NCBI RefSeq assembly: GCF_000002425.4
Contig: NC_037255.1
Location: forward strand, 24,145,389 to 24,209,388
Length of the DNA: 64,000 nucleotides
Origin: Physcomitrium patens
Taxonomy: Eukaryota; Streptophyta; Bryopsida; Funariales; Funariaceae
Direction: 5' to 3'
Position 1 is the first letter of the stretch. Every line of letters begins with the position of its first letter. Positions 8,430-63,916 of the stretch are shown piece after piece. Under the pieces are notes generated by a model. The model had not been told where the DNA came from, did no database searches, and was given only the letters and a program-made list of their open reading frames with translations. The translations under genes were made by a program, and so were the position numbers.

Positions 8430-8444
8430 ATTTGACAAGAGTAT

Positions 8445-9020
8445 TGTTGTTTTCATTGCGTTCAAGCTTCAGTAGACTAAAGCAATTGAACTAATAGAGG
8501 TTGGTTCAAACGTGGGAAAAGACTGGTTATATGAATTGGGTCTGTTAGTGCTACAATTGACTGTACTTTGGCTATTTGAAATCAATTATCAAACTACAAA
8601 ACACCGAGGCTTATTACTTCCATCTTAATTCAATCCATAATCCATTCTACGATTATCAATTCAACAATACTTCTCTCAATCACAATTCTTCATAAGCAAA
8701 TAATAAAAAAAATAAAGAGGTAGCACCAAGCTTATTCAAAGAGTCAATCTAGCTCTCGGCTTATGACTCTCACAATCTGGCTCTCGGCCTATGACTATCA
8801 CAGTCTGGCTTTGATCTCTCTTTCTTCAACCTATTTATCCCACCAAAAAGATGATCCATCAGCCAGTGGATTCCAAAGGTTATGACTCTTTGAATTCTTA
8901 ACTATTTATTCTACTAACAACCTACTGTTACCAATTAAATTGCCTAACCATCAGTCTAATTTTTAAAGTTGTCAATAACCAATCAGTAACTTATCACAAA
9001 ATTTATTCACCTATTCTACA
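8445..9020 (-). repeat. Element D 3' LTR
   Basis: Direct repeat of 48157-48708 over about 560 bp (shared blocks such as CAAGCTTCA, AAATCAATTATCAAACTAC and TTCCAAAGGTTATG). It starts TGTT and ends TACA. The left border is fixed by the perfect AGTAT duplication. Confidence 0.88.
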
Positions 9021-9035
9021 TAGTCCCACTCCTAA
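9021..9035 (-). promoter_or_regulatory. Element D polypurine tract
   Basis: Read on the minus strand, the bases just before the 3' LTR are TTAGGAGTGGGACTA, a purine-rich run in the position expected for second-strand priming. Confidence 0.65.
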
Positions 9036-9105
9036 TTGTGTAGCGTCCTCGCAAATATTATTTAGCCTCAATTTATGAAGACGTAGCAGCATTGTCGTAT
9101 TACAT

Positions 9106-10777
9106 TGTCGTGTTGTAACACGAGTATACTGTGAAAATATAAAGAAAGAAGACTTTTATTAATGTTCAATTACCTCGAATATTGGGAGCAATGACCAATT
9201 CCAGTACAAATACTGAGAGGCTAGGTTCAGTCACCCCGTTACAGTCAGCCGGGGCATACTAAAATGCTCCGTTCGATTCCAATAAGGGGAGTCAGCAGGA
9301 AGGGAAAGGACCAATTCACACGACGGGTGAGCCTGGTTCGAAGAGCTAATTGGATCCAATTTCAAGAATCCAATCCAGGTCCTCTTACCCAATATGAGAC
9401 CTGAATTGGTCGAGCAACCCAATGCAGTCTAATTAAGGGAAAATCCACATCTTACTACGGGCCTCAGCTAATCTGACGCGAAGGACGATTTTGATCCAAT
9501 TACGGGAACATCTGGGTCTTACTACTGGACTCTTAGCCAATATGAGACCTGAATTGGTTGGGCGACTCAATGTGGTCCCGATTACGGGGTTTCGATTCTA
9601 TTTCAGGCTGTCCTGTTCTCTGTGCCATTTCAGAGAATGTTGTTTTTGATAAAAGGATCTCTTAAAGGTAAAAATGGAAGAGAAAGCTCTGACGGCGAGA
9701 GCCAATTCTGGATCCAAGACGGAAAGAGCCAATTCCGGATCCAAGATGGAAGGATCCAATTCCGGATCCAAGACAGAAGATTGAAGAAATTCAAAGGCTA
9801 GGGTTTGAAAGAGGAGAGAATTAGGATTAAAGGAGAGGAAGGTTAAGAAATAGGGGGGGGGGATTTTTTTCAGATCGGATTTTTTTTAGATCAAAGAGCT
9901 AGCTTCAAGCTCTTTTCAAGGTCACTAGTTTGGTTTCATTAGGGTTTGTGAGGAGAGAGCAATCGCTGCTCAAAGTCAGTGTTTATTTTGGTGTTTCGGA
10001 TTTTATATAAAACATTGATGGTTTGCATTCTCAATCGGTTTGTGTAAGTCGTGTAGCATCTATAGATCAAAATTTGGTATTGTCTGGATAGTTGGGTGTG
10101 CTAAGTGTATACAAAAATTTGTATTAATCTAACAATGCAATCAAGAGATATCTAGGTTTTAGTACAAAGGATTGTCGGAAGTTGGTAGTCTAGGGTTGGA
10201 TAGGGTTTCTGGGATATCTGAAGATCTACTAGTTGGATCGACGTAATTTTTGGCTTGGTAATAGAAGATTTGGAGATCAAGCGGCTATTCAATTTTGAGC
10301 TAGAGTTAATGGTTGACAAAGGAGAAATCACTTCTGGAGTTTTTACATCAAATTTCAAGGTTGCGGCCGAGTGTCATCAGTGTGGTTTTTGGGCGTTTTC
10401 TTGCAATCTGTAAGTTGGATTGGGCTGAAATTTTTTGAGCATATAGAAGGCTTATACTGGTATTTGGGTGCAAAATTTCACACTAAGTGAACGGTTGAAT
10501 CAAAAGTTACAGCTTTTCAAAGCTCACTGGCTAGGATTAGGGCTTGTTAAGAAAAACAAAAGCAACTTAATTATAAAAGAAATAAAGCAATTGAAATATT
10601 GTATGGTTAAAATGACTATGAGGAGTGTTTTTAAATACTTGAAAATTGATATTTCAATTATATTCTTCATACATGGATAAAATCTATTAGGGTTTCTTTG
10701 TTATTTGCAAAAACAACTATACCTTCCACAGCCAGATACCCAGTGTATTCCCGAACAAGACAACACGTAATACGACA
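9106..10777 (+). repeat. Element A 5' LTR
   Basis: 1672 bp, starting TGTCGTGTTGTAACACGA and ending AATACGACA. The 6-bp ends TGTCGT/ACGACA are inverted repeats, and a second inverted repeat TCGTGTT-GT-AACACGA lies at the very start. It differs from the 3' LTR at a few dozen positions by eye, mostly transitions. A G10 run is at 9853-9862. Confidence 0.92.
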
Positions 10778-10781
10778 TAGG

Positions 10782-10799
10782 TGGTGAACCCGACGTGAA
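10782..10799 (+). promoter_or_regulatory. Element A primer-binding site
   Basis: TGGTGAACCCGACGTGAA starts four bases after the LTR and would pair with a tRNA 3' end including CCA. The same site occurs in E (one change) and B (C-to-T changes). The tRNA species was not identified from memory. Confidence 0.75.
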
Positions 10800-11043
10800 T
10801 GCTTGGGGTGGAAGGCATTGGATTTTGTATGTGGTTATTTGGATTGATGGTGCAAGATGACAAGGTTGATTTTAGAGTTTTTAAAAGACTTGGAGCTTTG
10901 GAGGATATTTTGAAAAGCAATGGTGATATTTGGATTATTATGGAATATATTATGGCTTTATAGACATCTTGGGGCATTTTGAAGTATCATAAGTTATTTA
11001 TTGGAGCATTTCAAGGGATATTTTTTTAACATTGTGGAAGAAA

Positions 11044-12597
11044 ATGGAAGATATTTCAATGAAGTCTTTGGATAGGTTGAATACTTTGGATGGACCAAAT
11101 GTTAAAGAGTTTTTTGAGGCTTTTTGTATATTTATGGAAGAACAACAAAAGATACAAGCAATTGAAAGGGATATCACAAAGGCATTATAAGGAATTTTCA
11201 ACAAATTTGGGAGGTTTAACAGATGCAACATCACTAAGTTTTTACAAGTTTATACATGTGAGATGGAGACATGCCAAATCCCTGAGGCAAAGATGATTTC
11301 AAGCTTTTATTTGGCTATTGAACCTGAGATTCATAAAAAGGTGAAGAGATTACTTGAAAGGGGTGTGGAGACATGGTCAAAATTTCAAGAACTTTTGAAG
11401 AAAGAATTTATTGATGCAAATGAGGATAAGATTACCAAGCGATAGTTTTTAGATTGGATAGAATTACAACCAGGCACGCATATGGATCTTTATGAATTCT
11501 TGAAAGAATTTGAAAAGAGGTTTTATCAACTGTCATCCTCAAAGAGACAGTCATTGGATGCTATAAAAATAGAATATTTTTAAAATGGTCTTGATGATGC
11601 CATGGGAGACAAACTTTTTATACTTCTTACAGATGAGTCTACGGAGAGTGGTTGTACTAACAATTGGGAAGAGTTGAAAGAAGCAACAATTCTTTTAGCA
11701 AAGCAACAAAGAGCACAAGCTAAAGGAGTTGGAGTATGGTCTAAGAAATCTTCTACTTTGGCTTCTATATCATCTTTATCAATACAAGGGATTAATCTTG
11801 AAAAAAGAGAAATGGAACAGCAACTGGAGGACTTCGAAGGAGGAGCCAATTTTTTGCAAATGAAAGAAAGTGGATCTTTTATCAAGGATGGTAAAGGAAA
11901 GAACAAAGACTTTAATCAAATTATTACTATGGAAGGTCAAAATATCAAAAAAATTGAAGGCAATATGGAACCCAAGGATTTAGAAATTAATGACAATAAG
12001 GATGAAAATTATGGCTATTCTACATTGAATATGTTTATGCAAGTGGATGATGGCAATTTGGATGGAACATCTCATGGTGGTAAAACAGATTATGGTGAAA
12101 GTTACAAGATTTTTCAAGAACATGAGGTTTCACAAGGCTATGAAATTTTTCAATATTATGAAGTAATACAACATATTGAGATAACACAAGGTTATGATGT
12201 TTCACAAGGATGCATTCAAGAAGAAATGAAGGATGTTTTACAAGGATACATTCAAGAAGAAATGATAGATATTTCACAAGATAATGTGGTGAAAGAAGAT
12301 TATGGAATCAAAGGTAAAGGTACTAAATCAATGGCTTTAATGAAGTTAATTGTGAGTACTAATTTTTTGGACCAAGATCAAGGTTACATGGATAATGCAC
12401 ATGTATTGGGGGCACAATTGGATTTTGATAAGAAAAAGATTCATCATGAAGTGTGGAATTCAAAGGTTGAAAATCTAAAAATCTTCAAATATAAAGACAT
12501 GGGCAATGGATTTAAGGATTATATGGACGTCTTAAATCAAGCATGGAATCAAAGGAACAAGAAAAAAGATACAAGCAAGATGTATGTGGCCATATGA
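11044..12597 (+). pseudogene. Element A Gag-like protein (broken)
   Basis: The first part (11044-11600) aligns with the capsid-like half of the Gag of E: motifs NITKFL, the block around ETWSKFQELLKKEF, FLDWIE, and LLAKQQ near 11700. Breaks are a stop at about 11188, frame changes near 11200, TAG at 11443 and TAA at 11581. From 11602 one frame stays open for 331 codons; after the gag match it becomes a glutamine- and tyrosine-rich region with short repeats (SQGYEIFQ, IQEEM) at about 12110-12290. No CCHC zinc knuckle is visible, unlike the Gag of E. With protease and polymerase absent, this would be the only product of the element, likely a particle protein. Whether the repeat-rich tail has a role is unknown. 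Confidence 0.7.
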
Positions 12598-12772
12598 AAG
12601 AAGTTTCAATTAAATCTTTCCATTTCAAAATTTGTACCTCGCCAATGGTTTGGTCATGTACAAAGTTGGATGTTTCCAATTTACTTGTACAAGATGGAAA
12701 CATGGATTTTTGGTATTGAATAAAGAATAATGGTGTACTGAATTTGGCACATACCGGAGGATGTGCAGGTTC

Positions 12773-12784
12773 AGAGGGGGTGGA
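12773..12784 (+). promoter_or_regulatory. Element A polypurine tract
   Basis: AGAGGGGGTGGA directly abuts the 3' LTR. The identical string precedes the 3' LTR of E on its strand (33193-33204), and one base differs in B (16228-16239). Confidence 0.85.
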
Positions 12785-14456
12785 TGTCGTGTTGTAACAC
12801 GAGTATACTGTGAAAATATAAAGAAAGAAGACTTTTATTAATGTTCAATTACCTCGAATATTGGGAGCAATGACCAATTCCAGTACAAATACTGAGAGGC
12901 TAGGTTCAGTCACCCCGTTACAGTCAGCCGGGGCATACTAAAATGCTCCGTTCGATTCCAATAACGGGAGTCAGCAGGAAGGGAAAGGACCAATTCACAC
13001 GACGGGTGAGCCTGGTTCGAAGAGCTAATTGGATCCAATATCAAGAATCCAATCTCGGTCCTCTTACCCAATATGAGACCTGAATTGGTCGGGCAACCCA
13101 ATGCAGTCTAATTACGGGAAAATCCACATCTTACTATGGGCCTCAGCCAATCTGACGCGAAGGACCAATTTGATCCAATTACGGGAATATCCGGGTCTTA
13201 CTATTGGACTCTTAGCCAATATGAGACCTGAATTGGTCGGGCGACTCAATGTGGTCCCGATTACGGGGTTTCGATTCTATTTGAGGCTGTCCTGTTCTCT
13301 GTGCCATTTCAGAGAATGTTGTTTTCGATAAAAAGATCTCTTAAAGGTAAAAATGGAAGAGAAAGCTCTGACGGCGAGAGCCAATTCTGGATCCAAGACG
13401 GAAAGAGCCAATTCCGGATCCAAGATGGAAGGAGCCAATTCCGGATCCAAGACAGAAGATTGAAGAAATTCAAAGGCTAGGGTTTGAAAGAGGAGAGAAT
13501 TAGGATTAAAGGAGAGGAAGGTTAAGAAATAGGGGGGGGGGATTTTTTTCAGATCGGATTTTTTTTAGATCAAAGAGCTAGCTTCAAGCTCTTTTCAAGG
13601 TCACTAGTTTGGTTTCATTAGGGTTTGTGAGGAGAGAGCAATCGCTGCTCAAAGTCAGTGTTTATTTTGGTGTTTCGGATTTTATATAAAACATTGATGG
13701 TTTGCATTCTCAATCGGTTTGTGTAAGTCGTGTAGCATCTATAAATCAAAATTTGGTATTGTCTGGATAGTTGGGTGTGCTAAGTGTATACAAAAATTTG
13801 TGTTAATCTAACGATGCAATCAAGAGATATCTAGGTTTTAGTACAAAGGGTTGTCGGAAGTTGGCAGTCTAAGGTTGGATAGGGTTTTTGTGATATCTGA
13901 AGATCTACTAGTTGGATCGACGTAATTTTTGGCTTGGTAATAGAAGATTTAGAGATCAAGTGGCTATTCAATTTTGAGCTGGAGTTAACGGTTGACAAAG
14001 GAGAAATCACTTCTAGAGTTTTTACATCAAATTTCAAGGTTGCGGCCGAGTGTCATCAGTGTGGTTTTTGGGCGTTTTCTTGCAATCTGTAAGTTGGGTT
14101 GGGCTGAAATTTTTTGAGCATATAGAAGGCTTATACTGGTATTTGGGTGCAAAATTTCACACTAAGTGAACGGTTGGATCAAAAGTTATAGCTTGTCAAT
14201 GCTCACTGGCTAGGATTAGGGTTTGTTAAGAAAAACAAAAACAACTTAATTATAAAAGAAATAAAGCAATTGAAATATTGTATGGTTAAAATGACTATGA
14301 GGAGTGTTTTTAAATACTTGAAAATTGATATTTCAATTATATTCTTCATACATGGATAAAATCTATTAGGGTTTCTTTGTTATTTGCAAAAACAACTATA
14401 CCTTCCACAGCCAGATACCCAGTGTATTCCCAAACAAGACAACACATAATACGACA
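12785..14456 (+). repeat. Element A 3' LTR
   Basis: Same length as the 5' LTR (1672 bp) and roughly 98 percent identical by eye. G10 run at 13532-13541. Confidence 0.92.
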
Positions 14457-14654
14457 ACGTGCTATCTTGCTTGAGAATGTACTAGATGTCTAGCTGTGGA
14501 AGATAAAACAATGTTTGCAAGTATCCAGGTAGGCTAATGGATTTGAAATATTTAAATACAAACTATTTCAGATTTCAATGTAAAAGCTTAATCCCAATAC
14601 AAAGTGCTTAGAAATACTATTTTTAATAAGTTCAAGATATTATAAGTATAAAGT

Positions 14655-14758
14655 CTTTTTTTATTTGTTATTTTTTATTTTTTATTTTATTTTATTTTAT
14701 TTTTTATTTTATTTTTTTATTTTATTTTTATTTTTATTTTTATTTTATTTTATTTTTA
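14655..14758. repeat. TTTTA-type microsatellite inside B LTR
   Basis: Degenerate array of TTTTA/TTTTTA units, about 100 bp. The homologous array in the other LTR (22391-22465) is shorter, which explains part of the LTR length difference. Confidence 0.88.
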
Positions 14759-15489
14759 ACCCTAACTCTACACAGCGAGCTTCAGCAAGTTATAATTCTC
14801 AATCTGATCGTCCGATTGTTATAAATTTCTACTACTAGTGTCTTTGAAAGTCTTTTTAATGTTCAAGAAGTTTCAATCCAATCTAACTTACAGGTTGTAG
14901 GAAAATGCCGTTAATTCACATTGATATATCTTGACTGCCGCCTAGAAGTCCTTGACTTACTATGCTAAAAGTCACCTTATTCTAGCTGGTAGATTTCTAG
15001 ATATTACATAAATCCTAAATAATCCCAATCTGCTAACTTTTGATACCTCTTTACGCTAATGGTCAAATATCCTCTATCTGTTTCATTAGATTAATACAAA
15101 CTTTTGCATGCACTCGGCATATTCAACCTTTTAGATACCTCTAAGTTTCAACCACAGTATTTTCTTCAATTTCACAAAATAGTCAAGAGTTCCAGTGGTT
15201 ACTTTATTGCAAAAAAAAAACCAATTCACCAATACAAACACTGACTTTCAACAATGATTGCCAAAGTTCTCCCAAATCCTATGAAATCCAATACTACACC
15301 TTTCGAAGGAGCTTGAAGCTAGCTTTCCGATCCCAAAAATTCTGATCTCCGAATGCCTCTTTCCTTATCCTCTCCTCCCTTTTAACTCCATGTGGTTCCC
15401 TTTTCTCCCGCCCTGGACTTCGAATTAGAACAGTTGACGATGCTTTCTCGGAATTCCTGTCTCTAAGACGATCTTTCCACCGAAAGGGT

Positions 15490-16100
15490 GTTTTTTTCAA
15501 AACGGCATAGAGAATAGAACAGCTTGAAATAGAACCAAAGCCTCCGTTTTTGGGATGTCATTGGGTTGCTCAACCAAGTTAGGTCTCATACTGGGTAAGA
15601 AGCCTGTATCAGAACCTAGATTGGATGCCCCCGTAATTGGGTCAAATTGGCTCTTCACATCAAACTCACCCGAATATTGAATTGGTCCTTTCTTTTTTTT
15701 TTGACTCCTCATAAGAACGGCTCGGACTTATTCCACCTGATTTATTGAAGAATCTTGAGGACCTTGATTTATCTCTTCAATTTTTCCTTGACTTTGGATC
15801 TGCTGATCCTATTTATTGAAATTAGACGGAGCATTACATTACTAATAAGTATGCCTTGAGTGCTTGCAATTCCTTCACACTGGTACGTAATCATCACTGG
15901 CTTTGGGATTGAAACATTCACTGACATAATGACCAACCTATCTGTAACGGAAACAACAAAGTGGTCTTCTTGCACTCCCATCATGTATATTGGGTGTCTC
16001 CACCAGTATATACCTACTAGGCTTATTCCATGTAGGATTGGAGAATGATCCTAGTTGTCCCGTTGGTACGAAGGGTACTTGGTTCGATGACGCCAATGGG
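15490..16100 (-). pseudogene. Gag fragment of D type captured within B LTR
   Basis: Minus-strand frames read a linker (around DVKSQFDPITGASN) preceded by zinc-knuckle residues (VGHYVSEC, NPKASDDY). They align to the gag-protease linker of D (29282-29691) and, continuing without interruption, to its zinc-knuckle part (31493-31790). Nucleotide similarity is obvious over about 600 bp. The copy has stops and is not part of any gag gene of B. The same segment is in the right LTR (about 23200-23810), and a shorter derivative is recognisable in the LTRs of A and E. Confidence 0.8.
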
Positions 16101-16227
16101 GTGACATTAATTGACCTTGAATATTGGCGCTAGAATTGGCCACTATTTCTAATATCTAAGATGACTAAATATTAATAATATCTTTTTGATTTATATTTTT
16201 ACCATATAGTCATGTTACAACACGACA

Positions 16228-16239
16228 TCCACGCCCTCT
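16228..16239 (-). promoter_or_regulatory. Element B polypurine tract
   Basis: Minus-strand AGAGGGCGTGGA abuts the 3' LTR; one base differs from A and E. Confidence 0.75.
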
Positions 16240-16289
16240 GAACCTGTCTATCCTCTGATATGTACCAAATAACCTAGTTTTTGTTTGAT

Positions 16290-18000
16290 TCATAATACAT
16301 TCTCTAAGTCTTTGTCCAAATCCTCTTCATTATTTTTGCTATCCATATCTAATTCATCTTCATGTTGAAGAATATTTATATCTTCACCAAGGTCTTCTAT
16401 ATTTATTTCTGTGTATCTTTGTTTAAATATTTTTACTCGCTTCCTTGTAATTGGTATTTTTAACCTTCTTCCATCTAACTCCCACAACGAGTAAGTTACA
16501 TTATCATCAATAGTTGTTACTACATATGGACCAAACCATCATTTAGAAAACTTCCTTAAAGTACTATATTGATTGTCTAAGCTACTATCATAGACCAAAA
16601 TCCAATCACCTTCTTCAATTGTTTTAGGCCTCAATCGTTGCTACTTATCAAATCATATCTTGTTTTATAACCTCACTCTTTTTAACCTTTCTAATGCTAT
16701 TTGCACATCTTCTGATCTTTGCTCTAATTATTGAATTCTAATAGCTACAAGTTCTTCTCTTATCAATCCATCTTCCCCTGGTAGTACACTCCAAGTAGGT
16801 ATTTTTTCTTCAATTGGCATAATTAATTTTTGGCCTATCATAAGCTCAATAGGCATCTATTCCATTACTGAGCTATAAGTTGTTTGATCAGTCCATAATG
16901 CAAATGACAAAATTCGTGGCCATTCTCTAACCTTTCGATTACAAGCTTTAACTAATGCTTTCACAATCAGTGGGTGACCACGTTCACTTTTTGCATTTCC
17001 TTCAAGATTATAAGCAATAGTTAGTGATATGTTAATTTCACATCTTTCAAAGAATTCACGAGATTCTTGTGTATTTAATTCTCCACGATCCGAGGTGATT
17101 TTTCCTACACATCCATAGCGGCAAATAACATCTTTAAGCAAAAATCTACAAATTCCTTCTGTAGTTTTTGTTCTCAATGCTCTTCCTTTTACTTGATTTG
17201 ATAAATCTTCACGAGTTAAGACCAAATATCTCATTTGCCATAACCCGATTGGCATAATAACCAAATCAACAACCCATTCAAAATGAATAGCTAGAGGATA
17301 TATATGATGAAGACCATCTCGATGTTGTATATTAGAATACACTTGAAAAATTTTACATGATTCTACAAATAAGAGCACATTTTGATACATATTTTTCTAC
17401 CAATATTGTTCCTTAAGCTTAGCAAAAGTAGTCCAAATTCCTCTATGTCGTGCCCATAAACTATCACGAAACTCCTTTAATAATTTTTCTTTTTCTTCCT
17501 TATTGCCTATCACTCTTTGTAGCATTCCAATTACTTTCTTTGGTCTCTTCTATAAGAATCTTTCTTGAAGCAAAAATCCATATGCTTTTTTTCTTATTTG
17601 TTTAAATTTTTTTGTAGACCAATTTTTTTGCTTAGTCAAGGTATTCAAGTAATGACCAATATCCAATAATTCTCCTTCATAATTTTCTTCAAGAAATAGC
17701 TTGTCTTCTTTGTTAAGATTTGATACTGAATAGAATTTTGACCCAACAACATCAATGTCTTCAACGATTTCATCTTCTCTTTCATATCTTGCTCAAGATA
17801 GCATGTCTGCTACTAAATTGTCCTTTCTAACAATATGATTAAATTCCAGATTTAATGACTTAATATAAGCAATCCATCTTAACATTATAATATCTGGGGT
17901 TGAATAATTAGTAATCATTCCAAGCAATGGCAAGCAATCTGTTTCAATTACTACTGCTGAACCAATCAAATAATCCCTTTCAGCTTTCATAGCCGAAATA
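16290..18000 (-). pseudogene. Element B integrase and RNase H end, broken
   Basis: Frames at 17793-17990 (RNase H end, NLVADMLS), 16857-17390 (integrase core, with MPIGLWQMRYLVL, the second Asp in TSDRGEL, and the Glu region around NAKSERGHP) and 16290-16487 (C-terminal tail, RVKIFKQR, acidic end) line up with one continuous product in E. They are separated by stops and frameshifts. The first catalytic Asp (VVDLVIMP) is kept. Confidence 0.85.
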
Positions 18001-18005
18001 ACTCT

Positions 18006-19760
18006 CTAAAGTTCTCTTTTGACTTGCGAACATGCACGTTGACGAGTACTTAAAACTTTAGCTCTAAATTGAATAGCAAATCTATTTCCACTTAAGTCAT
18101 CTTGACCCACAGCCCATCCAATAGCAATAAGACTGGTATCCACAGTAAGAATTACTTGTCTATTATAGTCATAATCAATTTTTCTTAAAATTGGAGGTGT
18201 CACCAATAACACCTTTAGCTTCTGCATTACTTCCGTATGTTTTCTTTCTCATTTAAATCGATAATCCTTATGCAATAATTCATATAAAAGATCTCCTACA
18301 TGAGCATAATGAGGAATCCATATATGATAAAATACACAAGCTCCTAAGAACTTGCGTACTTTTGTTAAAGAGTCACATGAATCCTTCATCCTTCCAATTG
18401 CATCAACTTTGCTTGGATCTGGCTTTCTCCTATAAAATCCATACAAATGCCCAACAATAAGAACTTCTTCCACTCCAAATATAGATTTTGTTCCTGAAAG
18501 TGTAAGATGAATCTCTTCAAGTCAAGTTAAAATCTTTTTACAATCTTATATATGATCAACAATATATTTGCGACACCCCCTCTCATCTAAAGTTTCATCT
18601 TTTTTTCCTTCTTTACATCCCTTGATAGGAACATCATCTAAAAAGGACATAGTTTTTTCAAGAATGAAGTCTCTTAATACCTTGTTCATCCCATTTATCA
18701 TATGTGCAACTGAGTTAGTAGCACCCTGAGAGAGAGTGCACATTTTAAGTAATCCAAGTGGCGTTCTCATTGTTGTTAGATCTTTACTCCCATGTACAAG
18801 TTGAAATTGATCATAACCCGAATAAAAATCATCCATTGAATAAATTGCCCTTCCTACAAATGCTTCTACAAACTCGTCTACTGAAGGTCCTATACCTATA
18901 TTTTTTATAGTTACTGCATTTATTGGCTACATATCTTCAATAAAATGTAATGATCCATTTTTCTTAGGCATCATAAGCCAACGACTAGAATATGGAGCAC
19001 AAAAAGGCTCCAAAAATTTCATTTGTATCTTTTCTTTCAATAATTCTACCAATTTAGGTAAATGTGCCCTCGGTGTGGGAATTGGCCTTAAGTTCCAAGG
19101 CACATGAGGTACTGTAAAGATAACCATAGGAGTAACAACATTAGGATCTACACATCCTATCTCACGAGACCCAAAGGCAAATGATTTACCTCGTTTTGTA
19201 AGCATTTTTTTAAAATATTCAATTTTTGTTGGAAATAAGGAACCATCACATCCAATCTTCAATTCTTCAAAAGTCTCCTTTGTAAACTGATGTCCAATCT
19301 TCTTTGGATCTCTTAAACTCTCATTTTTTGATGTTTCTTCCATCTGTTCCTTAGAATCTTCTGATAAAGGTCCGACAACAGGTTTTACCTTTTTATGTAC
19401 TGTTTTATATTTTATTTCCACAATAACTTGTGGTACTTGAAAAGATTCAAATATAGAATAAACTTCCCTCAAATGAATTTCCAAAATCTTATCATTATTT
19501 TCTAATCCAATAGATGCAATTAATTCTAAAAAATCCTCCAATCTATTTTCTTCATAAACACCTAAAGTCTTCTCATCATCTTCTAGTGTTCCTAACTTGC
19601 GTAATTCCTTTTCAATACTATATAATCTTTTCCTTTCTTTTCTTTTAAAATCATCAACTTTCTTATACATAATATTTCCATTCTCAAAAATATCAATAAA
19701 ACTTGCATCAAAGGTACCTTAATCTCGCAAGAGTACCTCCTCTTTTGTACCTCCATAATC
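18006..19760 (-). pseudogene. Element B reverse transcriptase, broken
   Basis: Frames at 18927-19670 (N-terminal region and RT start, PHVPWNLRPIP), 18546-18836 (polymerase core with the box SFLDDVPIKG), 18249-18473 (connection, FLGACVFYHIW) and 18006-18227 (RNase H start, TVDTS, GWAVGQDD) match E in order. Stops and frameshifts separate them. Confidence 0.87.
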
Positions 19761-19765
19761 CCGCT

Positions 19766-20250
19766 TCATAGTGGTACTTCTCCAAAATCCTTAAATCCTT
19801 CAACAACCTTTGGCAATGGTTTCTTTCTCAACCTATCTCGATTCCGTTCATGATTAGGAAGTACTGTCAGAAATTGTATAGCTTTCCTTGCATCTTCACT
19901 ACGTACCCTTACATAAGCAAAACCATCATCAAGTACTTTTGTTTCCATCCGTGTTGCCGTAATATAAGGTTGTCCTAAAATCAATGGATAAGACGTTGTA
20001 TCTTAAACAAAGAAATGTTGTTCTCTCGCAGCATCTCCAATCCAAATTTTGACATACGAACAAGCTCCATATAATTTGCCTCATGTGATATTAGCTGCTC
20101 GTATTGTCCATCCATGTTCCATATCAATTGGCCATTTTTGCTTCTTATAAAGATCCTTAGACATAAGATTTATTTGAGAACTATGGTCAACTAAAGCAAC
20201 TATTGGTTCTTCTATATCTCCTACTTTCACCAATACTTCAATAGTTGCCA
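19766..20250 (-). pseudogene. Element B aspartic protease, broken
   Basis: Matches the protease of E (ILGQPYITATRMETKVLDDG). The active-site region reads DHSS where E and F have DHGS. Stops near 20005 and 20085 break the frame. Processing of Gag-Pol would be its role. Confidence 0.75.
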
Positions 20251-20437
20251 TTGTCCAATGTTTCCAAGTATAATAGCTTAAAGCTTTTATTTCCTTATCA
20301 CTATAATCTTCGAAATATACTTCTTGATTATATCCATTTTTTTCATTTGTTGATTACTTGTAACTATTATCAACCTCTTCTTTATCTTTATATAATCCTG
20401 CATCAATAGTATGACTTATTCTAGCTTCGCCCATTAA

Positions 20438-22114: not shown

Positions 22115-22161
22115 AAAATAAAATGAAAATAAACGAAATCCAATATCTTCCACTTCAAGCT

Positions 22162-22179
22162 TTTATGTCGGATTCACCA
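22162..22179 (-). promoter_or_regulatory. Element B primer-binding site
   Basis: Minus-strand TGGTGAATCCGACATAAA, the site of A and E with three changes (two of them C-to-T or G-to-A). Confidence 0.7.
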
Positions 22180-22183
22180 CTTA

Positions 22184-22425: not shown

Positions 22426-22456
<31 letters not shown>

Positions 22457-25373: not shown

Positions 25374-25377
25374 CCAT

Positions 25378-47020: not shown

Positions 47021-47047
47021 TGACCGCTCCTCGTGGAACTCATCTCT

Positions 47048-47058: not shown

Positions 47059-47061
47059 TAA

Positions 47062-52476: not shown

Positions 52477-53732
52477 TGTCATACTATAAATGCTTACAGT
52501 GTATAAAAATTAGTTAAAACATATTATATGTTGATAAATCTAAATGTGTATTAGAGTGGCTAGTAGATTAAATTAAAAAGAGTTGATATAAGAAACTTTA
52601 CTTTGTTTCTTTATTTCTTTTTATTTTGACATTAAAATATATATATATAGGACCTAAATGTTTAGTATGAAACCTTAGGAAAAGGTGGAAACCTAAGGAT
52701 GAAAATCTAAACTAGTAGGAGGCTAATTGGGAGGGATGAAAGCAAGGCATGGTAGGATGAAGGCAAAGAATGGGGAACTTCATCCCTATTGGTCGAATAC
52801 CATGCCCAATGGGCTTTGAAGAGGCTGCCCGCGACCTTAATAAGGGATTCGGCAACTTCAAAGAGGGCATTCGGAGATTACAGGCTAGGATTGTAAAGTT
52901 TAGGATTTGGAGTACAATTTTTGTACAAAAATTATAGGATTTGGAGTTAGGGTGAAAAAGTTATAGCCGTTTGAAGTTAAGGTATTTATTTAAGATAATT
53001 GTTACTCTTTTGAGAGTACGAGGAGTTTTACAGTAGCTTTTGAAGATCAGAAGGTGCGACTGGAACGGCGATTTCAAGGCCTACATTTTTCACGAAAGAA
53101 TTATTGCTTTTGGAATTTATATGAAGGAGTTGTAAGGAGTTGAAGGTGGCACTTCCAAATCAAAAGCAATAAGTAAAGGGGTTTGTTTGTATTAATGGTT
53201 GGAGCCATTACTTGAGTATTCAGACAAATTTTTGGCTCAAACTTTTTTGGAGAATGTAAATTTTGTGTTAAAAAGCTATATATACAAATTTCGTGGCATT
53301 TGAGATTATATTTTGTGAGATATGAAGAAAATTTCATGTAGGTATATAAAGATAAGGGTTTGAAGCGAGTATTAGGGTTTTTAAGATATCTCAAGATCCG
53401 CAATGAATTTGTGGTTGAAAATTGTTGTAAAAGTTAAAATGAATACATCAGTACTTTAAATAAAATTTGAGTTTGTTTGGACGGTCGGATTAGGAGATAT
53501 GAGGTGTTGAAGTTCAGAAAAATCTCCACATAAGAATTTACAAGGGTTTATAAGATTTTATCATATTTTGGGTGTTGTTGGTTACTTGAGGCTTATGTAT
53601 TTGGTGTAATTACTTAAAAAGGGAAAAATTATATATAAACTTAGGGCTTCTCTTATTTTCAAGCTTGATTGAATAATTAGTGACAGCCAGAAGCCTAGCA
53701 TTTTCTTGAGGCAAACTCTCTCTACCCCGACA
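52477..53732 (+). repeat. Element F 5' LTR
   Basis: 1256 bp, TGTCATAC to CCCCGACA. Shorter than the 3' LTR because of a smaller TA array. Confidence 0.9.
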
Positions 53733-53735
53733 TAT

Positions 53736-53753
53736 TGGTGCTTCTACTGAGAG
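53736..53753 (+). promoter_or_regulatory. Element F primer-binding site
   Basis: TGGTGCTTCTACTGAGAG, three bases after the LTR. It resembles the complement of a plant tRNA-Thr 3' end with several differences. The assignment is tentative. Confidence 0.55.
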
Positions 53754-53777
53754 AGCCTTAAGGCATATGTTTAATTT

Positions 53778-55644
53778 ATGGAGGAAAGGCAACAGGTGCA
53801 TGGAGAGGATAGAAACACTACTAAGGCCTTACAAATAGTAGTGGACAAAGTTGAGAGGTTTGATGGAAGGAATATCACCAAGTTCTTAAGGATTTACACA
53901 TGTGAAAGGGAGGTGCATCAAGTTTCAGAGATGAAGATGATTACCACCTTTGATTTGGTAGTAGTACCAGAAATTAGAGAAAGGATGCAAGAGTCACATA
54001 CTAAAACTATATCATAGAAGAAATTTGAAGAATTCTTGAAAGATGAATTTTTTGAAGAAGATTGAGAAAGAATGACAAGACAGACTTTTTTTGGAGTGGA
54101 TTGAGCAAAGGCTAGGGAATCAATTGACTCCAAATGAATTAATTAGAGAATTTGAGACCAAGTTTGGGCAATTACCACTGCAAGAGAGGCAGCTCTTGGA
54201 AACAAGAAAAACTGGATTATTTTTATAAGCAGCTGATGAATATTTGGAAGACAAGCTTCTCTTTTATCTAGCAGATAAGACATCTGAGAGTGGTTTTATA
54301 AATAATTGGAAGCTAATAAAAGAGACTGTGGAACTTTTGACTAAACAACAGAAGATTAAGACTCGTGGTTTAATATTGAGATTGAAACTAGTACCTACAT
54401 CTCAGAATCAAGGACTACCTCAAAAAATGATCAAGATTGTAAATGATGGTACTCTTCAAGAATTAATTAAGGACATACAATATTTGAAGGTAGAAATGAT
54501 AGAGTTGAAGAAATTCCAAATAGTAAATTCATTAAAGATAATTGAAGGCTCAAAGGGATTTGTAGAGAGATGTATATAGTGTGACAATCCAAACTACAAG
54601 TGAGGTGAATATAACAGCTATAAAGGTGCAATCAAGGAAGATATTATATACTTCAAAGAAGGCAAGATAAGACTCACAGGGTCAGATGAGCCTTTAAAGA
54701 CAAATTTTGAAAAAGGTGGCATGAAAAAATTGATAGAAGAGTAAATAGCAAGAAATAATGACATATAAGGAGAAGGAGTTGAGTCTTACTTTGTTACAAT
54801 TGAACAAAAAATACTTAAGGCTATTTTCCTACCAACTACAGAAGTTATGATCAGGAGAGCTGAAGCTATCAGAAAAATGATTGAATAGAATGATCTAATT
54901 GATGCTATTAGTATTAAAGCATATTTATGTGGAGACAAATATGATGATGATTTATACAATGCCATGGTTGAAGAAAAAAGAGGTAGAGCTATTCATGAAG
55001 AAGATGTTATTGAGCTTGAAAATAAGAGGAGGTCTCCAAGAAACAAAGAAGCTTTTAAGGACCAAAAATCGGAGAAAATGCCTTCTTCTACTCATCTTGG
55101 TGGTGCACCATTACCAAAAGAGTGGTGGGAGAAGAGCAAAGAGAAGGAAAAAGATGAAACAAGCAAACCTAAACGTAAAAATCCTGCTTATAAGCTTCAA
55201 TCTGACATTGAAACATCTACAAATATGAAGAGCATTTTGAAAAAAAAGATCTTAGATGCAAAAATTGAATTTACTCTAAGAGAGATTCTTGGTATAACTA
55301 AAAAGGATTTCCATGAGTTGATCATCAATGTGATAAAGAAGAAGAGGCAAATGACATTTGAAGCTATTATGGTAGAGGCATTGGATACTTGGATAACTAT
55401 GGATGAGGAAGAAGAGATAGAGCAGGTATTTACACAATTTGCAATATTAAAAGCTAGAATTAAGGTTGATATGGAGAATGAGGCTTTAAATAAATATGAA
55501 GAAGCTATAGATGAGCATCAAATGAAATGTGCATCTATGAAAATTACTGGGATAAAGAAGAATGCACAAGAAGCAAGTGTAAATACTTGTTCTAAATGTG
55601 ATAATGATGGAATGGGAAATAATAGCTATTTAATTCTTTATTAG
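53778..55644 (+). pseudogene. Element F Gag, broken
   Basis: Pieces 53778-54017, 54244-54579 and 54964-55644 follow the Gag of E (FDGRNITKFLRIYT, LLTKQQK, KIEFTLREILGITKKDFHEL). The zinc-knuckle position (near 54570-54620) has lost its conserved His and last Cys (both now Tyr) and has a stop. The last piece contains a second Cys pair (CSKCDNDG) of unclear role. Confidence 0.85.
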
Positions 55645-55668
55645 GTTAGAGCTACTACGGAGACATAT

Positions 55669-56115
55669 GTGAGGTTGGGAGACTCTAAAGATCCAATTTT
55701 GGCTTTAGTTGATCATGGATCAGAAATCAATATCATGTCAAGGCAAATATATGAGAAAAATAAGTGGCCAATTGATACCAATCATGGTTGGATAATTAGA
55801 GCTGCAAATAACCAACAAGGTGATTTATACGAAGCTTGTCCAGCTATAAGGACTAGAATTAGAGATGTAGAAGTGGAGCAAAATTTCTTCGTGCAAAACT
55901 CTACTACATATTCGATAATACTTGGTCAATCCTATATTATAGCTACTAGAATGGAAACTAGAATCTTGGATGATGGTTCACACTATGCCAGGATTCGTAG
56001 TTGGGATGAAAGAAAAGCTGTGCAGTTTATTACTGTGAAACCTATTCATGAAAGGCATAAAGAACAATTAAGAGGGATGCCTTTGGAGCCAAGAAACAAC
56101 TTTGTAGATTTCTAG
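55669..56115 (+). pseudogene. Element F aspartic protease
   Basis: 148 codons with VDHGSEINIMS and ILGQSYIIATRMET, collinear with E. The piece itself is unbroken; stops separate it from Gag (about 55643) and from RT (about 56113). Confidence 0.82.
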
Positions 56116-56141
56116 AAAGCACCTTTGTAGAATGGGGACAC

Positions 56142-58418
56142 ATGGGTGCAAATAAGTCATCTACAAATCCCATTGTAGATAATATGAATTTTGGATTTTT
56201 AAACTTGACTAGTAATGGATTTGTGAATATTCGAAAGATTAAAGATTTAGATTTTGTACATAGAAGAATGGTGAAGAAACAAGAGAAAAACTTAAAAAGA
56301 GTGGATTTAGTTTCAAGTGATGAAGCCATAGTTGGAGTAATAGAAGTAGGTTTGGAAGATGATTTGATAAAGGTTCTCGAGAATTTAGCTATAAGCATAG
56401 ATGGAAATGTTATAGTAGAAATATATTCAAGAGAGACTTATGAAGAATTAGAAAAGATAGTGGTAATTGGTGGGCTTGCTACAAGCTATGGATTGAAATA
56501 TGAAGCTAAAATACAAATTAAATATAAAGTTGTAGTAAGAAAGGTAAAGCCTATAGCTACTCAATTACCAATTGATACTATGGATCATATCAACCAAGCA
56601 ATTAAAGAGCCAAGTCTAAGAGAAGGACGTAGATTTGGGCATCAATTTACTTAAGAATCATTAACTAAATTGAAGATTAGAGGAGGTGATTTCTTGACAT
56701 CAACAAAAAAAATTATATTTCAAGAAATGCTTATTAGGCATGGTAAGGCATTTGCCTCAACTCCTGATGAAATTGGATGTGTGGATCCTAACATTGTAGT
56801 ACCTATGGTAATCTTTACTGTGTCACATATTCCATGGAATTTAAAGCCTATACCTGTGCCTAGAGCTTTACTTCTAAAGTTGATAGAATTACTAAAAGAA
56901 AAGGTGAAGATGGATATTTTAGAACCTTCAATTGCTTCCTATTCTAATAGATGGTTCACAGTACCCAAGAAGTCAAGGGCATTAAGGTTTATTCAGGATA
57001 TGCAACCTGCAAATAGAGTAACTATTCGAAATATGAGATCAGGTCCTATAGTAGATGAAGTAGCTCAACAATTTGTAAGTCATGCCATCTACTCTATTGG
57101 AGACTTATATTCTGGATATGACCAATTTCAATTAGCTAAAGAGAGTAGGGACTTAACTACCATTAAGACTCCTTTGGGTTTAATGAGGATGTGTACCTTA
57201 CCTCAAGGTGCAATCAACTGAGTGGTTCATATGCAAAATGTTATGAAACAAATATTGAAAGAATTTATTCCTGAAAAAACCATATCATTTTTGGATGATA
57301 TACCTATAAAGAGAGATAAAAAAGAAGACAAGGATGAGACTATGGAGGTTGAAGGTTGTAGAAAGTTTGTGAAGAAACATATTGAAGATGTGGCTCAGAT
57401 ATTGGAGAGATTGGAGTCAGTGAATCTCACGTTATCTTTGGAGAAATCAAGCTTTGGAGTTGATGAGATTCTAGTGGTGGAACACATGTGTAGCAGGTAT
57501 GGTAGGAAACCAAATTCTGATAAAATTGATGCTATATCTAGAATGAAGGCTTATAAAAATATTATAGAAGTTAGAAGGTTTTTAGGAGCATGTGTGTTCT
57601 ATCACATTTAGGTGCCTCACTTTGCCCATATCTCAGAGCCACTATATAAGTTATTAAGGAAGGGTAAGAGATTTGTTTGAAAAGAAGAACAAAAAATAGC
57701 TATGAAAAACATAAAAAAGGTGTTGAGTTCATTACTTGTGCTTAGATAAGTAGATTATCAATGTGGAAGATCAATGGTTGTAACAGTGGATACAAGCCCT
57801 ATAGCAATTGGATGGGCTATTAGACAAGATGATGTAGAAGGGAGAAGATTTGCTATAAGGTTTGGAGCTAGGATTCTTATAAAGAGGCAAAGGGCTTATC
57901 CACAAGTTAAAAGAGAGCTTTTGAGAGCACTCACCGTTTTAAAGGTTGAGAGGAATTATTTGATTGGAGCAAGTATGGTTATGGAAACAAATTGTTTGCC
58001 ATTACTTGGAATGATAATTAACTGTACTACTCCAGACATTGCCATGTTAAGATGGATAGCCTACATAAGAACATTAAATCTTATTTTAGTACATATCACT
58101 GACAAAGAAAACTTGGTGGCGGATATGTTGTCTAGAGCTAGATATACCTTTGAAGAGGAAATGATGGCACACGAAGGAGGTGAAGATCAAGAAGAGAAGA
58201 GTTATGGAAATTCATTTGTTATTGGTGGAATGGATTTTGGTGATAAGGTTCAAAAATTCTATGAAGGTTTATATGAAGGTAGATTGAAGGATATTGGAAT
58301 TTATTTAAGCACAATGAAGAAACAAGAAGGAGGGATGGATAAAACCTTCAAAGATATTAAACATCAATCCTATAGTTATTTGCTTAGAGATGGATTCCTA
58401 TGGAAGAGGCCAAAATGA
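56142..58418 (+). pseudogene. Element F reverse transcriptase-RNase H
   Basis: Pieces 56142-56654, 56670-57221, 57222-57611 and 57774-58418. RT has GDLYSGYDQ, LPQGAIN (the E motif with T to I) and SFLDDIPIK. RNase H has TVDTS, KREL, METNCLP (the third acidic residue of E, Asp 550, is Asn here) and NLVADMLS. Stops at 57611 and about 57680 fall where E has Trp. Confidence 0.87.
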
Positions 58419-59600
58419 GGTGAAAAAATTCCATTGAGGATAGGAGATCTTGAAACTAAGTTTAAGATTTTAAAAGAATATCATGATATACTTTGGGCAG
58501 GGCACAAAGGAGTTTGGACTACATATACCAAGATCAAAGAAAGGTATTGGTAGAAAGATTTATACAGGGATGTAGAAGACTTTGTGAGCTCCTGTACAAA
58601 GTGTCAACTACAATCTAAAGTTAGGTACAGAGATGGATTACATCCTACTTATCGACCTTCAATACATTTTCAATAGGTGATTGATTTGGTAGCTATGCCA
58701 ATAGGACTTTGGGGTATGAAATACTTGATTTTGGCAAGAGAAGAGCTATCAAATTATGTTGAAGGGAGGTCTTTGAGAACCAAGACTACAAAAGTAATAT
58801 GCAAATTTATATTGGAAGACATCTTTAATAGATATGGTAGCATTGGGAGGATGAGAGCTGATAGAGGAGAATTATATGCTGTTGAAGAAAGAGAATTTTT
58901 CAAAAAGTATAGAGTTCAATTGAAGTTGACTACTTCTTATAATCTTGAAGCCAACTGAAAGAGTGAGGGATCATCCTCCTGTCATTTATGCATTGGTTAA
59001 GACATGTAAAGGTAAATCAATTCAATGGCCTAAACTGCTTCTATTTTTTTTATGAATTGATAGAACTACTTACAGTACTATCATTGATTATATGCCCATG
59101 GAATTAATATTAAGACAAAAATCTATGATGCCAACTGAAGAAACCTATCCTACATGGATATTTTTATCTTGAAAAGATGATATAAATAGAGAAAGATTAT
59201 TGAAGCTTCAAATCCAACAATTGGGTAGGTTACTTAAAGACCTACAAATTGTAGCTGAGAGGTTAAAGAAAGCAAGATTGAAAAATAAAAAAAGATTTGA
59301 TAAGACTCATAGGTTGAAGCTTAAGCCTATAGAAATTGGAGATTAGGTTCTAGTTTATGATAGCAGCCTTGAGCATCAACATAGTACTATAAAGAAATTT
59401 ACAAAAAAATAGTTTAGACCATATGTCGTGGTTACAGTCCATGATAATACCACATATACTTTACGTGAGTTAGATGGAGCTATCATAAGGAATCCAATAG
59501 CAAGGAAGAGGATGAAGACTTTCAAAAAAAGAGATGGGTTATTTCAAATAGAAGACCTTCAAGAATTCTTACCTCAATATTTAAACCAAGAAGATTAAGA
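58419..59600 (+). pseudogene. Element F integrase
   Basis: HHCC zinc domain (HDILWAGH, CTKC), then the core: first Asp in VIDLVAMP, second in RADRGEL, Glu region shortly after 58950 disturbed by a frameshift. Piece 58677-58958 is open. The C-terminal strand and basic tail are readable to about 59597. At least six stops coincide with Trp codons of E. Confidence 0.83.
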
Positions 59601-59696
59601 AGAAGAGTCTATGAGTAATTCAAAGAAAACTCAAAAAAATGAAGAAGAATAATATGTGGCATATACTTAAGGATGTACAAATTTGGAAGGAATGGA

Positions 59697-59896
59697 TGTC
59701 ACACTATAAATGCTTATAATGTGTAAAAATTAGTTAAAACATATTATATGTTGATAAATCTAGATGTGTGTTAGAGTCGCTAGTAGATTAAATTAAAAGG
59801 AGTTGGTATAAGAAACTTTACTTTGTTTTTTATTTCTTTTGATTTTGATATTAAAATATATACAAATATATATATCTATATACAAATATATATATC

Positions 59897-59928
<32 letters not shown>

Positions 59929-61011
59929 GGACTTAAATATTTAGTATGAAATCTTGGGAAAAGGTGGAAACCTAAGGATGAAAATCTAAACTAATAAGAG
60001 GCTAATTGGGAGGGATGAAAGCAAGGCATGGTCGGATGAAGGCAAAGAATGGGGAACTTCATCCCTATTGGTCGAATACCATGCCCAATGGGCTTTGAAG
60101 AGGCTGCCCGCGACCTTAACAAGGGATTCGGCAACTTCAAAGAGGGCATTCGGAGATTATAGGCTAGGATTGTAAAGTTTAGGATTTGGGGTACAATTTT
60201 TGTACAAAAATTATAGGATTTGGAGTTAGGGTGAAAACGTTATAGCCGTTTGAAGTTAAGATATTTATTTAAGATAATTATTACTCTTTTGAGAGTACGA
60301 GGAATTTTACAACAGCTTTTGAAGATCGGAAGGTGCGACTGGAACGGCGATTTTAAGGCCTACATTTTTTACAAAAGAATTATAGCTTTTGGAGTTTATA
60401 TGAAAGAGTTGTAAGGAGTTGAAGTTGGCACTTCCAAATCAAAAGCAATAAGTAAAGGGGTTTGTTTGTATTAATGGTTGGAGCCATTACTTGAGTATTC
60501 AGACAAATTTTTGGCTCAAACTTTTTTGGAGAATGTAAATTTTGTGTTAAAAAGCTATATATACAAATTTCGTGGCATTTGAGATTATATTTTGTGAGAT
60601 ATGAAGAAAATTTCATGTAGATATATAAAGACAAGGGTTTGAAGCGAGTATTAGGGTTTTTAAGATATCTCAAGATCCGCAATGAATTTGTGGTTGAAAA
60701 TTGTTGTAAAAGTTAAAATGAATACATCAGTACTTCAAGTAAAATTTGAGTTTGTTTGGACGGTCGGATTAAGACATATGAGGTGTTGAAGTTCGGAAAA
60801 ATCTCCATATAAGAATTCACAAGGGTTTATAAGATTTTATCATATTTTGGATGTTGTTGGTTACTTGAGGATTGTGTATTTGGTGTAATTACTTAAAAAG
60901 AGAAAAATTATATATAAACTTAAGGCTTTTCTTATTTTCAAGCTTCATTGAATAATTAGTGACAGCTAGAAGTCCAACGTTTTCTTGAGGCAAACTCCCT
61001 CTATCTCGATA
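59697..61011 (+). repeat. Element F 3' LTR
   Basis: 1315 bp, matching the 5' LTR except for a longer TA-rich array (59855-59928) with a duplicated block TACAAATATATATATCTATA. Preceded by the purine-rich GGAAGGAATGGA (59685-59696). The terminal GACA has become GATA. Confidence 0.9.
59855..59928. repeat. TA-rich microsatellite in F 3' LTR
   Basis: TA array with two copies of a 20-bp unit. The corresponding place in the 5' LTR (about 52637-52648) has only a short TA run. Confidence 0.88.
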
Positions 61012-61015
61012 ATGT

Positions 61016-61740: not shown

Positions 61741-61744
61741 ATTG

Positions 61745-61857
61745 TAATAGCCATTCTAGTTCAATATTATATCATCTTTGAAAGAACTTCCTAGTTCTTT
61801 TCAATGATAGATAAGTCTATTGAGGATTTTCTTTCATTAAGATTCATATCCTTGATA
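61745..61857 (+). repeat. Element G truncated 3' LTR
   Basis: Only the last 113 bp or so of the LTR remain (matching 8317-8429). They are joined directly to ORF3, so a deletion removed the first three quarters of the LTR and the polypurine tract. Confidence 0.7.
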
Positions 61858-62347
61858 CTACTACATATACTATTAAATTCCAAAATCTTACTTGTGATGT
61901 GGATTCAAATGACAAAGTCCATATCAATCAATTTTGATATGAATTGAAAGACAATGTCAAAGATTTATTGTTGATTATGTCAATAGCAGATTCATTAGAA
62001 TAATTTATTCAATAAGCCATTGTATGTGAAAATCAACTCTTTAAAAAATAACCAGAATGAAGATTTGATTGAAGAAGTACAAATCAAGCCATAGCCATGC
62101 CTTCTAAAATTTTGGAAGTTTATTCATCCATGCCAAAGCCTATGCAAATTAACATGGTATGTTTAAAACTTCTTTTTGAGTAAGAAAAGACTTATCGTCA
62201 TCAAGAAGGTTTGTGCTTATTTTGAAGAGAATCCAAGCACACTGCTCAATATTGTTCAAAAAAACAATGTAATTATAAAATAAGGAACATACTTTGCCAA
62301 AGTAGATGATGTGTCAAAAAATAAGTTTTTTTGAACTATAATAGGAA
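61858..62347 (+). pseudogene. Element I gag remnant, 3' part
   Basis: Matches the end of the gag of G (49110-49600), including the decayed knuckle region near 62215-62260, and continues the left remnant that ended at 7895. Full of stops. Confidence 0.7.
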
Positions 62348-62351
62348 TTAT

Positions 62352-62676
62352 TGTCATATAGCATGATTTTTTATTTGGAAATATATTGAGTCCCTAACTA
62401 TAAAGAATTTAGCTTTAACTTATTAAGTAAGCTCTAATAAGTGATTTATTCTTAATATAAAGGATAAATAAATATAAAAATATCAATAGATATTTTATTA
62501 ATAAAAAACTTTATATTTAAGAAGATTTTTATATAAGGCTTTTTAAAGCATCTAAAAATGTCCCAACATCCTTTGTTATATCAAATCATAACTACTTATT
62601 TGCTGGTAAGTTAGATTTCTAATAATCTCAAAGAAAATCTATAATCTCTTTTCAAAAATTTATCTTTATATCTCCA

Positions 62677-62719
<43 letters not shown>

Positions 62720-63912
62720 TGGCTTTCAAAAATTCTTTTATTTTGTATAAAATACTTAAATTGTAGCAAAATATTTTCAAAATATTTTTGTTTGAGAAAG
62801 GATTTTTTTCTCCAAACTTTAAAATTTTATATCACTTGATCCAATTGTTAAATTTTTTTCAAATTTCTACATAATATAGTATTTATTCTTAAGTTCAACT
62901 AAAAAATAAATTAATTATAAATTTACTAAAAATTATCTGGCATATTAGAAATCCTAGCAAATATTCTAAATCCTAATTTATAAGTACTTAAGTATTATTT
63001 TCTTCATATCTCAAAAACCAAAAATTAAAATATCACAAAATTTGGTATATAGCTTTACAACATAATAATACACATTCATAAAAAAAATTAGCCAAAGATT
63101 TATTCAAATTCTTAAGATATGGCTAGAATTAAATCCTTAATGAAATTGATTTATTAACAAACCTCAATTTGAAAGTGATGTCTTCAAGCAATCATTTCTC
63201 TTCCAAATCTACTCTAAATCTTTTATCTTTTTTATTAAAAATATTTTTTTTTAAATCAACTTTTCAATTGCATAATCCAATCCTCAAAAATCTTTTATAT
63301 ACATGCACTATGCTCTAAAGAGTGACAGTAGATACAAAATCAATACCTTGACTTTGAACGCTTATATCTTCTTCATAAAAATTCCAAATTATATAAGATT
63401 TTTACTAAAATCATATTCAAAATTTTAAACTTAATGATCTTAACTTCTAATGTTCAAATCTCTTTAATATAGTAACTTTCATCTCTAATGACACCTCCGA
63501 CAGTCTCCTTGAATTCTATTGGGCATGACTTTTGGCCAATAGGAATAGAGATTTTCATCATCCATATGATTACTCTAATTATTTTTTTTAATACAAAAAT
63601 CTTTTTCTAATTTTTTTTCTAATAAGTTTGAAATAGTATGTGTCCTAAACACCAAATAAAAGAAACAAAATAAGATTTTAAGATTCACCAATATCTAAAT
63701 AAAGGTATTTCTAAATATATAAAACTATTATCAACATAAAAATCAATCTTAATAGTAGCCTTTTTAGACTAACTACCTCAAAGTATCAATCTAATTATAT
63801 TTTGTAACCAACTAAAATCTAATAAGATGGCTCTTATTATATTATGTAATAAATTATATATTAAATATATACATGCATTATTTTTACATACTAGCCAAAT
63901 CACAACATGATA
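62352..63912 (-). mobile_element. Solo LTR S3 (F-family type) in I
   Basis: About 1561 bp, starting TGTCATATAGCATG and ending ACAACATGATA like S2. Inner blocks match S2 and the reverse of the F LTR (around 63520). Flanks TTAT (62348-62351) and CTAT (63913-63916) align to CCGT in the intact equivalent of C (about 43190). Confidence 0.8.
62683..62713. repeat. AT dinucleotide microsatellite in S3
   Basis: Perfect AT array of about 15 units. Confidence 0.88.
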
Positions 63913-63916
63913 CTAT

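Follow-up and report, generated by a model that had tools for sequence, protein, structure and literature searches.

The window analysed here is a 64,000-nucleotide stretch of Physcomitrium patens DNA (contig NC_037255.1, positions 24,145,389 to 24,209,388). It contains seven insertions, A, B, E, F, S1, S2 and S3, which are long terminal repeat (LTR) retrotransposons of one non-chromovirus Ty3/gypsy clade. Each is flanked by a 4-bp target duplication, and once CpG decay is allowed for, all seven duplications go back to a tetramer with CG at its centre, in most cases MCGK. A sequence-only reading of the window had drawn attention to these duplications and proposed an integrase that prefers such targets. 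The duplications are as described and the evidence for them is very strong; the proposal about the integrase is broadly correct, and the phenomenon is in print for the very probable parent clade, Phygy.

Insertions and target duplications in the window

Ends and flanks were re-derived within the window for the seven insertions and for the chromodomain-type Ty3 element C, the control. Element A (9106-14456, plus strand) has two 1672-bp LTRs (9106-10777 and 12785-14456) with ends TGTCGT...ACGACA and 97.6% identity to each other. Its target copies are ACAT on the left (9102-9105) and ACGT on the right (14457-14460). No pol is recognised in its internal part of 2.0 kb, which has one 337-aa frame (11584-12597); the enzymes of a full-length relative probably supplied its mobility. 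A is nested in one LTR of element B (9093-23934, minus strand), which is flanked by GCAT (9089-9092) and ACGT (23935-23938). Element E (31894-40491, minus strand; ACGT 31890-31893, ACAT 40492-40495) is 8.6 kb long, about 6.0 kb of it internal, with long pol and upstream frames between 34419 and 39149. The 715-aa pol frame (34419-36566, minus strand) covers reverse transcriptase (RT) and RNase H, matching Pfam RVT_1 at 1.5e-11 and RT_RNaseH_2 at 1.6e-16. The other copies are broken. Element F (52477-61011, plus strand; ACGT 52473-52476, ATGT 61012-61015) belongs to a second subfamily and lies in a C-like element, between the integrase core and the chromodomain. S1 (29692-31492; ACGG 29688-29691, ACAG 31493-31496), S2 (25378-26367; CCAT 25374-25377, CCGT 26368-26371) and S3 (62352-63912; TTAT 62348-62351, CTAT 63913-63916) are solo LTRs, all on the minus strand, and the host of S3 is a further C-like copy. 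E, S1 and S2, three of the seven insertions, interrupt one and the same retroelement, H (about 24925-41282, minus strand). H has an RT at about 27693-28109, which we take to resemble Athila/Tat, and the integrase zinc motif CDPCQRTG.

The flank pairs match those of the earlier reading, and 4 bp is the sole length that fits all seven. With transitions allowed, the pairs agree at 28 of 28 positions, 20 of them identical, while no pair agrees at 3, 5, 7 or 8 bp and only one of the seven at 6 bp. All eight differing positions are transitions, and six of these fall in the two central positions. The chance of a central CG in at least six of seven sites is 5e-9 at local CG densities, or 6e-6 if CG made up 5% of dinucleotides. 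The derivation of every target from ACGT or ACGG/CCGT needs a correction for the pair of B, GCAT/ACGT, where the target may originally have been GCGT. Element C (41423-47613, plus strand; CCATC 41418-41422, ACATC 47614-47618) makes a 5-bp duplication without CpG; that this duplication has one mismatch is a correction to the sequence-only reading.

The empty site for A is a single ACGT at 22193-22196 in the other LTR of B. For S3, direct comparison confirms CCGT at the equivalent position in element C, so that TTAT and CTAT fit as decay products. These sites also bear on the idea that the CG letters are part of the element ends rather than of the target. The flanks are indeed nearly constant at two positions, as expected for element ends, but each empty site holds one copy, which refutes the idea. 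The outer bases vary yet agree across one insertion (GCGG/GCGG, TCGT/TCGT, CCGC/CCGC), and the inner LTR junctions of A, E and C have no CG. We regard an origin in the element ends as having a negligible probability.

Removal of the insert with one target copy had been said to restore the host frame for B, E, F, S1 and S2, which is too strong a claim; the 4-bp length is independent of the frame argument. The claim stands for F, S1 and S2. At the F join the motif NHLVFNVSLLELYKT (NHLVF-NV-SLLELYKT) is restored, compared with IHPVFHVSLLEPYKT in P0122, a close relative of C, although open length favours 5 bp (17 codons, against 13 at 4 bp). At the S1 join the open frame is longest when 1, 4 or 7 bp are taken as the duplication length. 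Open length is undecisive at the S2 join (23 codons at 4, 24 at 0 and 1), but one frame runs from the zinc motif of H into integrase-core-like sequence and thus supports 4 bp. The E join is ambiguous, with 18 codons at 4 and 24 at 2 and 5. The claim fails for B: joined at 4 bp, one side is left with just five codons, compared with 28-29 at lengths 2 and 5.

Target sites across the assembly

The survey covered the assembly of the window (470,438,890 bases in 101 contigs), and for each LTR-end pattern the first 100 matches were listed; all counts below refer to these listed matches. The outer 5' LTR end (U3) of the A/B/E type gave 1777 matches, and the 100 listed are all on contig C1. Nine rows that resemble the inner polypurine junction, all on the same contig, were dropped; one of them ends in GTGG, is ambiguous and would count as TG. 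The remaining 91 rows have CG at the centre in 79 cases, CA in 6 and TG in 6. At the outer 3' LTR end (U5) of the same type (1976 matches, none of the 100 dropped) the centres are CG 80, CA 6, TG 6, TA 2 and other 6, with 94 of 100 fitting a CG or its decay products. The U5 end of the S2 type, a second subfamily (180 matches, none of the 100 dropped), gives CG 39, TG 31, CA 17, TA 8 and other 5, with 95 of 100 fitting. Heavier decay in these flanks would fit an older family. For the C-type outer 5' end (1156 matches), 15 polypurine-like rows were dropped from the 100. The 85 that were kept show no central CG, with CA 3, TG 7 and TA 12, together 22 of 85. Across 20 systematic 10-kb stretches of contig C1, 1.59% of the dinucleotides are CG. 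The CG preference is near-absolute, and among the listed matches the enrichment on which the sequence-only reading had staked its proposal is present: 79 of 91 and 80 of 100, against 0 of 85 in the control.

Nor does a 5-bp duplication predominate, the other outcome that would have spoken against the proposal. Naive pairing of the U3 and U5 lists gives 40 pairs, of which 22 are identical over 4 bp, 11 differ by transitions only and 7 mismatch, so that 33 of 40 agree at 4 bp. Random tetramer pairs would be identical in ~9% of cases, about 4 of 40, by hand arithmetic from the listed counts. None of the 12 exact pairs that were fetched, out of the 22, extends to 5 bp. These flanks and the C-type control refute chance or selective reading of the seven sites, which we consider vanishingly improbable. 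The window by itself leaves some room for it: there are just seven sites, S3 needs an outside reference and B is mismatched at position 1.

The outer bases follow a rule of their own. The A/B/E-type flanks with CG include 66 distinct ones; their position 1 is A in 30, C in 22, G in 9 and T in 5, and the complement of position 4 is A in 29, C in 22, G in 9 and T in 6. Such a mirror image is what a symmetric integrase complex cutting with a 4-bp stagger should produce. Around CG, the window background is rich in T (the commonest base, at 40%), and the outer bases depart from it with a p of 1e-12. MCGK accounts for 40 of the 66 flanks, compared with 24% of NCGN in the window and 20% in the stretches.

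Several points weigh against so strict a preference. Misfits amount to 6 of 100 U5 rows and 5 of 100 S2-type rows. TG and CA centres are scored as decay by assumption. Repeated copies and a single contig weigh heavily in the A/B/E counts, with 78 distinct 7-mers among the 91 rows. Seven of the 40 naive pairs mismatch; all seven are taken as wrong pairings, and five of them span more than 10 kb. The survey covered ends of the A/B/E, S2 and C types. Two F-like LTRs in the 20 stretches (L029 and L026, with flanks CCAT/CCGT and CCGT/CCGC) are too few to count, and some of the other LTR-end rows in the same stretches are without CG.

The family also inserts into itself. At L013 (G000:C1:14145769-14147260) the insertion site of one copy is the CG at the start of another copy's LTR, TG[TCGT]GTTG. 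At L018 and L019 (G000:C1:19197958-19198140 and 19206508-19206680) another copy occupies the LTR position equal to that of A in B. Because of these copies, the LTR ends are seen to carry targets for their own family.

Element class, integrase and proposed mechanism

The best database proteins for E are 65-67% identical over nearly the whole query, and one is 84% identical over 69%. Relatives in the liverwort Riccia sorocarpa are 48-72% identical (120 listed of 323). Two relatives, P0002 and P0009, contain RT, RNase H, H2C2 and rve domains; a Chromo domain, tested on these relatives rather than on the window copies, was not found in them at E-values up to 1. P0122 is 89% identical to the C pol over 93% and has a Chromo domain at 1.5e-14. 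A 36-row tree places E and B together with four proteins from Riccia, and the two pieces of F among other database proteins, close to two more from Riccia. C lies within the set that the search with C retrieved, and E, B and F stand apart from that set. The integrase part of P0002 matches the integrases of prototype foamy virus (PFV; E-value 1e-20) and Ty3 (7e-16), and the best match of whole P0002 is Ty3 (1e-56). The clade of the seven insertions is very probably Phygy.

After the second catalytic Asp, all 23 motif-matched proteins among the 120 listed E relatives read D-R-G-E-L, and 58 of the 70 matches shown among 120 listed C relatives have P/T/S-Q-F there. DRGEL is a candidate integrase signature; what counts against giving it a part in target choice is that this is correlation only. 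In the alignment with PFV integrase, its Glu faces the residue that comes directly after D-Q-G. This residue we take to be A188, equivalent to S119 of human immunodeficiency virus.

We are highly confident in an integrase that would work with a 4-bp stagger on almost only CG-centred targets, with mirrored outer bases and later CpG decay. Of this, the data directly show the 4-bp duplication, the central CG, the mirrored outer bases and differences by transition alone. The integrase would join the two cDNA ends to the target at active sites 4 bp apart. PFV makes 4-bp duplications as well. The dyad of the symmetric complex would fall on the central dinucleotide, and CG would be almost the sole accepted centre. 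Since two integrase subunits would face the target symmetrically, the choice of outer bases would be mirrored too, favouring A or C and avoiding T at position 1, and favouring G or T and avoiding A at position 4. Gap repair would then leave NCGN duplicated on both sides. The duplicated CpG would later turn into CA or TG, presumably because methylated cytosine is deaminated; this decay would explain why the window copies differ at the centre. A flexible pyrimidine-purine step at the centre is favourable in related complexes such as that of PFV. If flexibility were all that counted, CA, TG and TA would be accepted as well, so near-exclusive CG calls for reading of the bases.

It may instead be that the complex is drawn to methylated CpG, or to a protein bound there, and that the integrase's own preference is mild. 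The targets decay in a pattern like that of methylated CpG, and a passage in a review lists methylation among the factors in target choice, citing a 1992 study of CpG methylation. However, CG lies exactly at the dyad of the 4-bp duplication and the outer bases are mirror images. In the S2-type flanks, CG is at +2,+3 in the 39 rows counted above and at neighbouring steps in 0-3, which suggests contact at the dyad, not distant tethering. We consider targeting by methylation improbable; the integrase might still read 5-methyl-CpG directly. Since CG sits exactly at the dyad and the outer bases are mirrored, we infer that the integrase itself, not a tether, reads CG, and methylation would be the cause of the CpG decay. 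A bolder version is doubtful: CpG at the dyad might be essentially obligatory, its methylated form might be read, and DRGEL, which stands clade-wide where other elements have the usual residues after the second catalytic Asp, might be part of the reading surface. If true, a DNA methylation mark would steer this retroelement integrase with single-base precision.

The integrases of most LTR retroelements are only weakly selective for target bases, and a CG-restricted clade is a natural model for base-by-base target reading. The duplications are also a built-in record, with two identical CpGs per new insertion whose later loss can be counted.

Some further features of the window concern single elements. 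The LTR of B (22184-23934 and 14457-16227) contains stretches 74% identical to the gag-like region of H (29317-29685 and 31496-31763), as if it had captured foreign gag sequence, to judge from this similarity. The interior of S1 (29978-30442) holds overlapping direct repeats with offsets of 54 to 243 bp in self-comparison. The CpG observed/expected ratio is 0.04-0.26 in the internal region of F (54001-60000), a strong depletion, and 0.62-0.95 in E; our reading is a contrast of age or of methylation. A, B and E share a primer-binding site, TGGTGAAYCCGA... (10772-10793, 22168-22189 and 39163-39184), which we take to be tRNA-Trp-like, and the site of F differs (TGGTGCTTCTACTG..., from 53733). A tRNA scan found none, and scans of viral contigs found no relatives. 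An AWPM-19-like plant exon at 1656-1967 (minus strand; PF05512 at E-value 7e-6, just under the Pfam cut-off), in the GC-rich part 1001-3000, is probably a host gene. A search with it gave 11 candidates, none at an E-value of 0.01 or better. Together with the Riccia relatives and the 470-Mb assembly, the exon indicates a moss host, and a rust fungus was rejected.

Comparison with known systems

A limited literature search found no report of an NCGN preference of a retrotransposon besides Neumann et al. 2019 (PMC6317226). One sentence there singles out Phygy, a Ty3 clade of P. patens outside the chromoviruses, as an exception that prefers NCGN. The view that a CG-centred target is unusual for plant Ty3 elements is right, but that sentence had put it in print for Phygy. 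Our result thus rediscovers the preference and adds detail: the near-absolute strictness, the rule for the outer bases, the signs of decay and the candidate DRGEL signature go beyond the passages of published work considered here. The published preference becomes testable through this strictness, the rule for the outer bases and the comparison with an element of the same genome that is indifferent to CG.

Jedlicka et al. 2019 (PMC6911290) describe GC-rich centres for the 4-bp duplications of 12 plant genomes. They give 4 bp as the most frequent duplication length in Phygy and, for P. patens, Phygy within Tcn1 as the most frequent recurrent nesting. Phygy copies between INT and CHR might all have shared the exact site of F; this was rejected, as the sites described in that paper are always at least 50 bp apart. 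A list in a liverwort paper (PMC12885004) also includes Phygy.

Errantiviruses of the ZAM subgroup are gypsy-group elements that likewise have a palindromic, CG-containing target, and part of a review (PMC5408687) gives CGCG for those of Drosophila. They differ in having AGT/AnT ends, compared with TG/CA (or decay) here, and a CGCG rather than an NCGN core.

Tcn1-type chromoviruses, represented here by element C, share the genome and the Ty3/gypsy type with the seven insertions. They differ in the chromodomain of the close relative, in the 5-bp duplication and in the listed flanks without any central CG. C is probably the P. patens family RLG1, a chromodomain family described as dominant in a passage of PMC7466625. 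That paper also reports polymorphic insertions for several families, among them RLG3 with 67. The chromodomain that marks the integrase C-terminus of chromoviruses is absent from P0002 and P0009, the relatives tested.

The elements here share several features with Phygy. Both are of the non-chromovirus Ty3 type without chromodomain (here as judged from the same two relatives), and both combine NCGN targets with 4-bp duplications. Phygy copies frequently sit inside Tcn1-type chromoviruses, and F likewise lies inside a C-like element. A short element with a polyprotein nearly filling the internal part is a trait of Phygy; here E measures 8.6 kb and the internal part of A 2.0 kb. A difference is that Jedlicka et al. 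report no significant palindrome signal for Phygy across 20 bp (p 0.94). Finally, the published sentence speaks of a preference for NCGN, whereas here the choice is near-absolute and comes with an outer-base rule.

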